Assembly (NCBI RefSeq): GCF_017873855.1
Contig: NZ_JAGGKR010000001.1
Coordinates: forward strand, 1,240,001 to 1,304,000
Direction of reading: 5' to 3'
Origin: Methanolinea mesophila
GTDB lineage: Archaea; Halobacteriota; Methanomicrobia; Methanomicrobiales; Methanospirillaceae
DNA length: 64,000 nt
Notes under the pieces: model-generated
Databases searched by the model: none
Seen by the model: the letters and a program-made list of their open reading frames with translations, nothing else
What the model was told of the DNA's origin: nothing
In this document: positions 14,487-32,777 of the stretch, piece by piece
Layout: every line of letters starts with the position of its first letter
Position numbering within the stretch: position 1 is the first letter of the stretch
Translations under genes and position numbers: made by a program

Positions 14487-15284
14487 TTATTCCCTATCTT
14501 TCAAGACACAGATCGCCCCGGGCTCACGGATAAGCAGGGCGAGGCTCTCGGTGATTGAAAACTCCAGGCTGTCCCCCACCGGGCCGATGTACCCTATGGT
14601 CATGTCCTGGCCGAGAACGATGGAGGCGTACATCTTCCCTGAGGCGATCAGCACCCCGCCGCTCTTCAGAGAGGGGGCCTTGTAGACCCCGGCGGAGACG
14701 ATGCTCTTCAGGTTCTCGAGTTCAGTGCCGGTCCCCTGGATGAATGCCCGATACAGGAGGTTGTACCGCGACGGTGCGAGTGCAAGGCTGTATGGGCCGT
14801 GGAACCCCGCCTCGTCGAGCTTCGTCAGGGCCTGGATGATATCGTCCGCGGCCTTCCCGACGGTATTCCAGGACGCGAGCTTGTGGGAGTTTGCACCCTC
14901 CACGCTCATCAGCCCGGGGCATCCCTCGACTCCTTCGAAGACCAGGGCGTCTTCCTGCCCCGCGCACTCGAGGGCGGCGGCTGCCACCGGCGATGCAGTG
15001 AACGGCAGGCCGGTCTGCTCGTATGCCATAAGGTCCCTGATCCCCAGGCAGAAGGTGGTGTAGAGCATGGTGACCGGGACAAACTGGCTGGTGATCATAC
15101 ATTCGGATACCTGGCAGTCCTCGAGGGGAATTCCCTTCAGTCCCAGCCCGTACGGGCCTTCGATATGAAGGAGCTTCCGCCCGGTCAGGATGCTCTTTGC
15201 CGCGCCCGCCATGGTCGCATCGAGCATCTTCCAGGTCTCGCCCCCGATAGGGGCTTCTTCACGTGCGAGATATTTTGATGCCAT
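14487..15284 (-). CDS. Family 1 encapsulin nanocompartment shell protein
   Basis: Shell protein with the HK97 phage-capsid fold that self-assembles into a protein compartment (linocin M18/encapsulin family). It is 265 residues, the family's usual length. It begins MASKYLAREEAPIGGETW, followed by IEGPYGLGLKGIPL (the VEGPxGW-type motif), GFHGPYSLALAP and YNLLYRA, and ends with FSITESLALLIREPGAICVL, where IxESxAxRIxxP-type residues are recognisable. A very strong ribosome-binding site (GGAGAGGAGG) precedes ATG 15284. It lies 15 bases after a ferritin-like gene whose C-terminus carries the encapsulation peptide, so cargo and shell are co-expressed. The contents are therefore probably iron. Confidence 0.93.
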   Translation of the reverse strand: MASKYLAREEAPIGGETWKMLDATMAGAAKSILTGRKLLHIEGPYGLGLKGIPLEDCQVSECMITSQFVPVTMLYTTFCLGIRDLMAYEQTGLPFTASPVAAAALECAGQEDALVFEGVEGCPGLMSVEGANSHKLASWNTVGKAADDIIQALTKLDEAGFHGPYSLALAPSRYNLLYRAFIQGTGTELENLKSIVSAGVYKAPSLKSGGVLIASGKMYASIVLGQDMTIGYIGPVGDSLEFSITESLALLIREPGAICVLKDRE

Positions 15285-15299
15285 AATTTCCTCCTCTCC

Positions 15300-15665
15300 T
15301 TATTCCTTCATGGACCCGATGGTCAGGTCCGATGACTCTTCGGCCGGTACTGCGGGCTCTTTCCCTGACACGCGGGCGATCATCGCCTCGACCTCCGCGG
15401 TGCCGTCTGCATAGAACCCCGCTTCGTCCGGGGCGAGTTCAATAAGCAGACGGATGAACTCGCCGGCGTGGACACGTTCTTCGTCCGCGATGTCCATGAG
15501 CACCGCCTTTGCGAGGGGGTCGTCGGTAGACTCCGCGAGCTGGGTGTAAACCTGGATCGCCTCGTACTCGTCTGCGACGCTAATTCGTATCGCCCTGACA
15601 AGCTCGCTTTTTGTGAGTTTTCTCTCACTGTTTTTTCCCGAAAATGGGGTTGAAAATTCCACCAT
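15300..15665 (-). CDS. Encapsulated ferritin-like protein (EncFtn-type cargo)
   Basis: Cargo ferroxidase of 121 residues. Two helices carry Glu33, Tyr40, Glu63 and His66, with the same spacings (E-x6-Y and E-x2-H) as the di-iron ligands of Rhodospirillum rubrum EncFtn (E32, Y39, E62, H65, from family knowledge). A disordered linker leads to the C-terminal SSDLTIGSMKE, which matches the LTIGSLx encapsulin-targeting peptide. ATG 15665 has GGAG 9 bases upstream. The shell gene follows at once. In described systems such proteins oxidise Fe(II) and load the compartment with mineral; oxidative-stress protection in an anaerobe is a reasonable inference. Confidence 0.92.
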   Translation of the reverse strand: MVEFSTPFSGKNSERKLTKSELVRAIRISVADEYEAIQVYTQLAESTDDPLAKAVLMDIADEERVHAGEFIRLLIELAPDEAGFYADGTAEVEAMIARVSGKEPAVPAEESSDLTIGSMKE

Positions 15666-15951
15666 ATGTCATTGCTCCAATTTATTTTTCCAAACGGCTC
15701 CGCCGTTTTTTATGGGTCCTGCATTTTTGGAATACAGGAATCGCGGTGAGTGTTAAAAGGGGATCCTCACGAACCCTCTACCCGTAATATACCCTATGGG
15801 ACATATATACGTATGCCTCAAGCAGCCCTGAAAATGCCCGGGAAACTCCCTTCCGGCCATAAATTAGATATTACCGCCGCCGGGGTTCCTGCAGAGTACC
15901 CCCGGCCTTTCCGATTCGTTTTTATTTTCCGCAGGCTTTCCGGGATACTGT
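15666..15951. other. Intergenic region upstream of the encapsulin operon
   Basis: 286 bases between the encapsulin operon start and the end of the DUF2284 gene. The near part holds the palindrome and TATA-like sequence. The remainder contains a TATATATACGT stretch near 15803 and a short plus-strand frame with no protein signature. No further gene is supported. Confidence 0.4.
15692..15708. promoter_or_regulatory. Palindrome in the encapsulin operon promoter
   Basis: Perfect inverted repeat AAACGGC-TCC-GCCGTTT located 27-43 bases upstream of the ferritin-like start. On the minus strand a TATA-like CATAAAAAAC overlaps its far arm (15706-15715), which would put the transcription start near 15680. 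A protein bound here would block polymerase entry, so this is a candidate repressor operator; an RNA hairpin is the alternative. Confidence 0.45.
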
Positions 15952-31115: not shown

Positions 31116-32777
31116 TTAGAAGTCGCCCATTCCGCCCATGCCGCCCATTCCGCCCATGCCACCCATACCTTCCATACCGGGTGCTCCTCCCGGGGGTGCC
31201 GCGGACTTGGACGAGGCGATCACATCGTCGATCCGGAGGATCATGGTTGCCGCCTCTGCTGCGCTCGCGATTGCCTGGGTCTTGACCCGCAGGGGCTCGA
31301 CCACACCGGCCTTGGCCATGTCCTCGGTCTTGCCCTCGAACACGTTCAGGCCGTAGGTCTTCTTGCCCTTCTCGTGGGCCGCACGGAGCTCGACCAGCAT
31401 ATCGATGGGGTCGAGCCCTGCATTCTCCGCAAGGGTGCGGGGGATGATCTCCAGTGCGTTGGCGAACGCCTCGATGGCGAGCTGGGCCCTGCCGCCGACG
31501 CTTGCCGCATACTCGCGGAGCCGGAGGGAGAGCTCGATCTCGGGTGCACCGCCGCCGGCGACAAGTTTCTTGTCCTCGAAGACCACACCGACGACCCGGA
31601 GTGCGTCCTCGATTGCCCGCTCGAGCTCGTCGACCACGTGCTCGGTTCCTCCGCGGACGATGATGGAGACCGCTTTCGGGTTCTTGCACTGCTCGACGAA
31701 GACCATCTCCTCGCCGGATACCTTCCGCTCCTCGACGATCCCTGCAAACCCGAGCTCGTCGGGGGTGATCGCGTCGATGGAGGAGACCAGTGCGCCGCCG
31801 GTTGCCCGGGCGAGCTTCTCCATGTCGCTCTTCTTTACCCTGCGTACGGCAAAGACGCCTGCCTTGGCCAGGTAGTGCTGGGCGATGTCGTCGATACCCT
31901 TCTGGCAGAAGAGCACCGTGGCACCGGATGCGACGACCTTGTCGACGATGTTCCGGATCATCCGCTCTTCTTCGTCCAGGAATGCCTGGAGCTGCTCGGG
32001 GCTGGTGATGTTGATCTCTGCGTCGACCTCGGTCTTCTTGAACTCCACCGCGGCGTTGAGCAGGAGGATCTTGGCGTCCTTGACCTTCTTGGGCATAGCG
32101 GGGTGCACGCGTTCCTTGTCCACCAGCACGCCCTCGACGATCTCGGAGTCGTCGACCGAGCCGCCGACCTTCTTCTCCACCTTGATGTAGTCCTTGTCAA
32201 CGGTGCCGTCATCGTCTGCCACCATGGTGACCGCCTTGACCACCAGCTCGCAGAGCTTCTCCTTCGAGGCCTCGGAGCCCTTGCCGGTCATCGCGGTCTC
32301 CGCGATCTTGCAGAGCATGCCCTGGTCCTTGCCCTTCAGGGTGATGGCGATATCTTTCAGGATCGCCTGGGCCTTCTCGGCCGCCTGGCGGTACCCGTGG
32401 GCGATCACGGTCGGGTGAACGTCCTGGTCGAGGAGCTCCTCGGCACGCTTCAGGAGTTCGCCGGCGATGACCACCGCGGTGGTGGTGCCGTCCCCGACTT
32501 CATCGTCCTGGGTCTTGGCGACTTCCACCATCATCTTGGCGGCAGGGTGCTCGATGTCCATTTCCTTGAGGATGGTGACACCGTCGTTGGTGATGACCAC
32601 GTCGCCGATGGTGTCCACGAGCATCTTGTCCATGCCCTTGGGCCCAAGGGTAGTCCGTACTGCACTTGCAACCGCTTTTGCCGCGGCGATGTTCATGCCC
32701 TGGGCGTCACGCCCGCGGGTCCTTGAACTTCCTTCTTTAAGAATGAGGATAGGTTGTCCTCCAAGCTGCGCTGACAT
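31116..32777 (-). CDS. thsA: Thermosome subunit (group II chaperonin)
   Basis: ATP-dependent cytosolic chaperonin of 553 residues. Diagnostic segments are [49 protein letters not shown] in the equatorial domain and the flexible C-terminal GGM repeat tail. Its own promoter is the TATATA stretch near 32820, immediately after the upstream regulator's stop. Paralogous subunits, if any, are outside the window. Confidence 0.96.

Follow-up and report, generated by a model that had tools for sequence, protein, structure and literature searches.

Most of the tagged ferritin-like cargos of encapsulins that have been characterised are bacterial, and the solved archaeal example is a fusion protein. In the tagged EncFtn proteins described so far, a helical core is followed by a disordered linker and a tail (PMC11202242). 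The residues E32, Y39, E62 and H65 of R. rubrum EncFtn have a role in iron oxidation backed by mutants or structures, and archaeal fusion proteins carry an aspartate at the outer motif position that is a histidine in bacterial EncFtn (PMC11202242). On the shell side, R34 and D229 have been assigned a role in binding the targeting peptide. Contacts of the K. pneumoniae peptide LNIGSLK have been solved and mutated, and D38 of the shell forms a salt bridge with its lysine (PMC10960027). Untagged Flps whose genes lie apart from encapsulin operons have been recognised as a class of their own (PMC6668986). Flp cargos are also recorded in two archaeal phyla (PMC8346489).

The locus described here lies on the minus strand of the window, by which we mean the whole stretch of 64,000 nucleotides analysed. 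The genome is Methanoregulaceae-like, with Methanolinea and Methanoregula as its nearest named relatives. It encodes McrA, so the host is a methanogen, as the first-pass annotation had supposed. That annotation also proposed that a 265-residue shell gene and a 121-residue cargo gene lie 15 bases apart, and the coordinates of the open reading frames agree. We conclude that the two genes very probably specify an encapsulin system of family 1 with a tagged ferritin-like cargo. The cargo would use O2 or H2O2 to oxidise Fe(II) within the shell, where the ferric mineral would be retained, and oxidative defence coupled to iron sequestration is the likeliest role.

The shell and cargo genes

The shell gene (14487..15284, minus strand) encodes 265 amino acids with full-length homology to family 1 encapsulins. 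It matches Pfam Linocin_M18 (PF04454) over residues 4-249 with an E-value of 1.6e-67 and scores 215 bits against NCBIfam encap_f1 (NF041155), for which the cut-off is 100; the earlier family assignment is thus borne out. A profile built from relatives of the shell matches M. xanthus EncA with an E-value of about 7e-46, and EncA is the best relative by sequence in the PDB (about 134 bits, compared with 68.6 for the P. furiosus shell and 65 for that of T. maritima). The sequence profile matches solved HK97-fold encapsulins; an AF2 model of the shell (13 sequences) reaches a pLDDT of only 35.

Both residues with a known role in peptide binding have equivalents in the protein: R34 corresponds to R36 (15177..15179, minus strand) and D229 to D227 (14604..14606, minus strand), neither of which varies across the 33 methanogen shells compared. 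The position equivalent to D38 is H40 and varies among these relatives. The region of the E-loop, residues 43-84 (15033..15158, minus strand), is unusually short. Without exception, the 33 methanogen shells have a spanning segment of 42 residues, compared with 44 in P. furiosus, 48 in T. maritima (the reference used being identical to PDB 3dkt), 56 in Q. thermotolerans and 57 in EncA. The triangulation number is considered to depend on the E-loop, and the P. furiosus encapsulin is T = 3 (PMC11202242). Since that shell has an E-loop of similar length, we rejected the notion that the short loop implies T = 1, and no shell size is predicted.

The cargo gene (15300..15665, minus strand) encodes 121 amino acids. 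Its product matches NCBIfam EncB_fam (NF058679) over the whole length with 110 bits (cut-off 90) and Pfam EncFtn-like with 27.9 (cut-off 27). Against the older model TIGR04535 (encapsulin-associated ferritin-like protein), it scores 92.9 bits, below the curated cut-off of 125. Its closest solved relatives, by both sequence and fold, are the EncFtn domain of P. furiosus (5n5e) and M. xanthus EncC (7s8t). The AF2 model (pLDDT 79) places helices at residues 19-45, 50-77 and 81-100, followed by a disordered linker and tail; it contains the two-helix ferritin-like domain of about 100 residues together with a short H4. When this model was submitted to Foldseek, the best matches were 5n5e, 7s8t, 7s5k and 5da5, with probabilities of about 1.0 but, for this short helical protein, E-values of only 1e-3 to 0.6. 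The alignment to the EncFtn fold that the first reading had called for is therefore present.

The putative ferroxidase centre consists of E33, Y40, E63 and H66 (15468..15569, minus strand). As had been claimed, the spacing of these residues equals that of the R. rubrum set (PMC11202242). The E, Y, E, H set, including the EXXH motif, is retained in all of the 56 cargos that we tabulated, whether tagged or untagged. The outer motif reads D58-x3-E62-E63-x-x-H66, with aspartate. Beyond the helices, residues 101-113 (15327..15365, minus strand) form a linker predicted to be disordered (pLDDT about 37-52), which differs in length and sequence among relatives. It leads to the candidate targeting peptide LTIGSMKE at residues 114-121 (15303..15326, minus strand), the arrangement expected of an EncFtn cargo. 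This peptide matches the published LTVGSLR of M. xanthus and LNIGSLK of K. pneumoniae, and it shares with the latter the lysine and all three hydrophobic positions (PMC10960027). A search of the 2.66 Mb genome with a degenerate codon pattern for the tag gave a single match, precisely at the end of the cargo gene, and thus no second tagged cargo; the reversed control pattern has three matches.

The pair is flanked by a DUF2284 gene and a helicase gene. In its leader, 27-43 bases before the cargo start, is the inverted repeat AAACGGC-GGA-GCCGTTT (15692..15708, minus strand), and many related loci have differing short inverted repeats 25-50 bases before the cargo start. These repeats are possibly a leader hairpin or an operator; of the 25 upstream regions in which a conserved leader hairpin was sought, few reached significance on their own. 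No matches were obtained when the window was scanned against Rfam and for tRNAs. Elsewhere in the window, a nine-base tandem repeat, CGCCCATGC (31124-31179), probably codes for the Gly-Met-rich tail of a minus-strand chaperonin.

Distribution of shell and tag among Methanomicrobiales

The shell gene is present in 47 of the 108 genomes of Methanoregulaceae, intact in 46, and one further family of Methanomicrobiales also has it. No other family of the order yielded the encapsulated form. At the level of the phylum, 25 of 394 genomes score above the encapsulin cut-off: 24 are from the same two families and the other is G186. The match in G186 (L059), the sole gene from elsewhere to exceed the cut-off, encodes a prophage major capsid protein and lies among head genes; we regard it as a false positive of NF041155. 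In relatives, the cargo gene lies directly upstream of every intact shell gene examined, and it follows that the pairing is not due to chance.

The cargo model is far more widespread, matching 157 of the 232 Methanomicrobiales genomes, among them the majority in four families that lack the shell. Its matches in the shell-less families mostly end at about 100-104 residues and are untagged; in the other families of the order, EncFtn usually occurs in this way, with neither tag nor shell. Because untagged EncFtn persists in many shell-less relatives, encapsulation is not needed for the core function of EncFtn, whatever that function is. Of seven untagged proteins encoded in genomes that lack an intact shell, six score above the cut-off of EncB_fam (NF058679). 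The word cargo in the name of that family therefore over-reaches, since it is also given to proteins for which there is no shell. Two other arrangements of untagged genes were seen. In some genomes of another family, two untagged EncFtn paralogues lie a few kilobases apart (L139, L140, L141). At a further locus (L103, G413), the untagged gene adjoins an ArdC-domain gene and a gene that is ParB-like by eye (no Pfam match), neighbours that suggest a mobile element.

Presence of the tag closely follows presence of the shell. The cargo ends in T-I/V-G-S/A/G-L/M-K/R beside every intact shell, and this ending is absent where there is none. Among 99 Methanomicrobiales cargo genes, the tag occurs in all 49 that adjoin an intact shell and in 0 of the 50 others. 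Gaps in draft assemblies could hide some shells from this count, but in all nine untagged cases of the tabulated set (56 cargos) the sequence continues for 1.4 kb or more beyond the cargo on its downstream side. This distribution, together with the likeness to published peptides, upholds the earlier proposal that LTIGSMKE is a targeting peptide, and it ties the peptide evolutionarily to the shell. The untagged proteins, too, retain the ferroxidase residues.

A tree built from the cargo cores shows seven changes, in each of which tag and shell change jointly; with its small number of columns and its many weak forks, it does not settle the order of gains and losses. The best tree contains seven independent pairs, of which the four tested, on well supported branches, all agree (sign test p = 0.125, a value that reflects there being only four pairs). 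One genome (G007), whose locus shares the DUF2284 and helicase neighbours of the window, shows shell and tag decaying together: the shell is a pseudogene of which a broken stretch is left, and the cargo reaches a stop codon that is followed by an eroded tag, TTLNSLK. In a genome of the other family (G473), a frame-broken shell accompanies an interrupted cargo.

In at least three lineages, untagged EncFtn proteins have lysine-rich C-termini (KAPKSKGSKVQKKAGGSRKK, KPQKKGGKTAKK, KPKAAAKPKKATKSAKKK) in place of the targeting peptide, at loci L088 (G419), L100 (G027), L101 (G035), L102 (G460) and L128 (G537). These tails resemble those of Dps. One speculative account, which we consider rather improbable as a whole, is that EncFtn of Methanomicrobiales switches repeatedly between encapsulated and free forms, that the tag decays once the shell is lost, and that in at least three lineages the free protein has a Dps-like lysine-rich tail with which it may bind and protect DNA.

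Role of the system and competing explanations

By analogy with relatives, the two long helices of the cargo would pair across subunits to form di-iron ferroxidase centres. The last eight residues would bind the inner face of the shell as it assembles. Fe(II) that enters the shell would then react with O2 or H2O2 and be stored there as a ferric mineral, a process that would remove both oxidant and free iron when the anaerobe meets oxygen. Encapsulated ferritins have been linked to peroxide stress, and H2O2 can serve as the oxidant (PMC11202242).

Genomic context in a sister genus provides a further indication. In a Methanoregula-like genus, an Fe superoxide dismutase gene lies directly upstream of the pair in 10 genomes. 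The same-strand run there (L110:2210-4654 and nine other genomes) comprises genes for Fe superoxide dismutase, EncFtn, encapsulin, a 127-residue protein and a winged-helix protein; the 127-residue protein has no Pfam match and ends in CCGASCS. This adjacency, found in the sister genus and not in the window, whose genome has its Fe superoxide dismutase gene elsewhere, suggests oxidative defence. We rank oxidative defence with sequestration above plain storage on the strength of this context and of the literature on peroxide stress.

The first-pass annotation had offered storage and oxidative defence as alternatives. The defence half is favoured by the superoxide dismutase beside the pair in the sister genus. 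The storage half is the weaker, because the window's genome also encodes a canonical ferritin elsewhere, and the encapsulin would thus not be the sole iron store. It nonetheless underlies the best of the competing explanations, namely that the system is mainly an iron store for Fe-S and other iron enzymes during anoxic growth and that oxygen defence is secondary. Methanogens have a high demand for iron. Encapsulin cages also hold more iron than ferritins do (PMC11202242, PMC6668986). We nevertheless judge this explanation unlikely, albeit worth serious consideration, given the canonical ferritin, the association with superoxide dismutase and the many related methanogens that live without a shell. 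In addition, ferroxidase chemistry requires an oxidant.

It is also conceivable that the shell assembles and the ferritin works outside it, the C-terminus being kept for another reason, for instance to provide the shell gene with its ribosome-binding site. The last tag codons AAG GAG TGA do serve at the same time as the shell's Shine-Dalgarno site in most relatives (L021-L034 junctions). However, this overlap accounts for the final K-E only, not for T-I-G-S-L, and the window differs from most relatives in that its Shine-Dalgarno-like site, GGAGAGGAGG, lies ahead of the shell ATG in the 15-base intergenic gap (15285..15299, minus strand), yet the tag is kept. As the tag also matches known peptides of unrelated systems, a ferritin acting outside the shell is very improbable.

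Encapsulins and HK97 capsids have a common fold, and the search with the same family model also retrieved the distant L059 among prophage head genes, but the idea that the shell is a prophage capsid remnant paired with a ferritin by accident can safely be rejected, given a score far above the encapsulin cut-off, flanking genes among which no phage head genes were recognised (open reading frames and Pfam), a cargo adjoining the shell at every intact locus and a tag matched to shell presence, the phage-like L059 being the prophage capsid of another genome.

Relation to known systems

The operon type found here is already known and both proteins belong to named families. The system itself stands as the first-pass annotation described it; its supposed rarity, as a separate-gene system in a strict anaerobe, is less secure, since such a cargo is not of an unusual kind in view of T. 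maritima, of the Flp cargos in two archaeal phyla and of the NCBIfam names for both genes. No paper describing methanogen encapsulins was found in the open-licence literature, although the supplementary lists of PMC8346489 may include some of the genomes. The literature searched appears to report neither the joint gains and losses of tag and shell nor the association with superoxide dismutase. The spread of a separate tagged system through a methanogen family, and the lack of both shell and tag in close relatives, provide a natural set of comparisons for what the shell contributes to a ferroxidase.

The most similar described system is that of M. xanthus, in which EncA and the cargos EncB and EncC are likewise encoded as separate shell and ferritin-like proteins with a tag of the LTVGSLR type. 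EncA is the best profile match of the window's shell, and M. xanthus cargo is among the best for its cargo. The window's system differs in that its shell is 15 residues shorter in the E-loop region, it has one cargo rather than several, and its host is an archaeon. The fusion proteins of the P. furiosus and Archaeoglobus type (PFC_05175; 5n5e, 2e0z) are also archaeal, provide the closest solved EncFtn domain and have a similarly short E-loop segment. In P. furiosus, however, the ferritin domain is fused to the shell and carries no tag, and the shell is more distant; in the window, shell and cargo are two separate open reading frames. T. maritima, also an anaerobe, has a separate tagged cargo and shell, with R34 and D229 in common, but it is bacterial, its tag is GGDLGIRK, its shell is more distant and its E-loop segment is longer. 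Finally, the untagged EncFtn-like proteins (s-FLP, N. europaea NE0167; the 'noEncFlp' of PMC6668986) share the EncFtn core and lack a tag, which is also the state in most Methanomicrobiales families other than Methanoregulaceae; 3k6c is among the Foldseek matches of the window's cargo. Compared with these, the protein of the window has in addition a linker and a targeting peptide, and the shell gene stands next to it.
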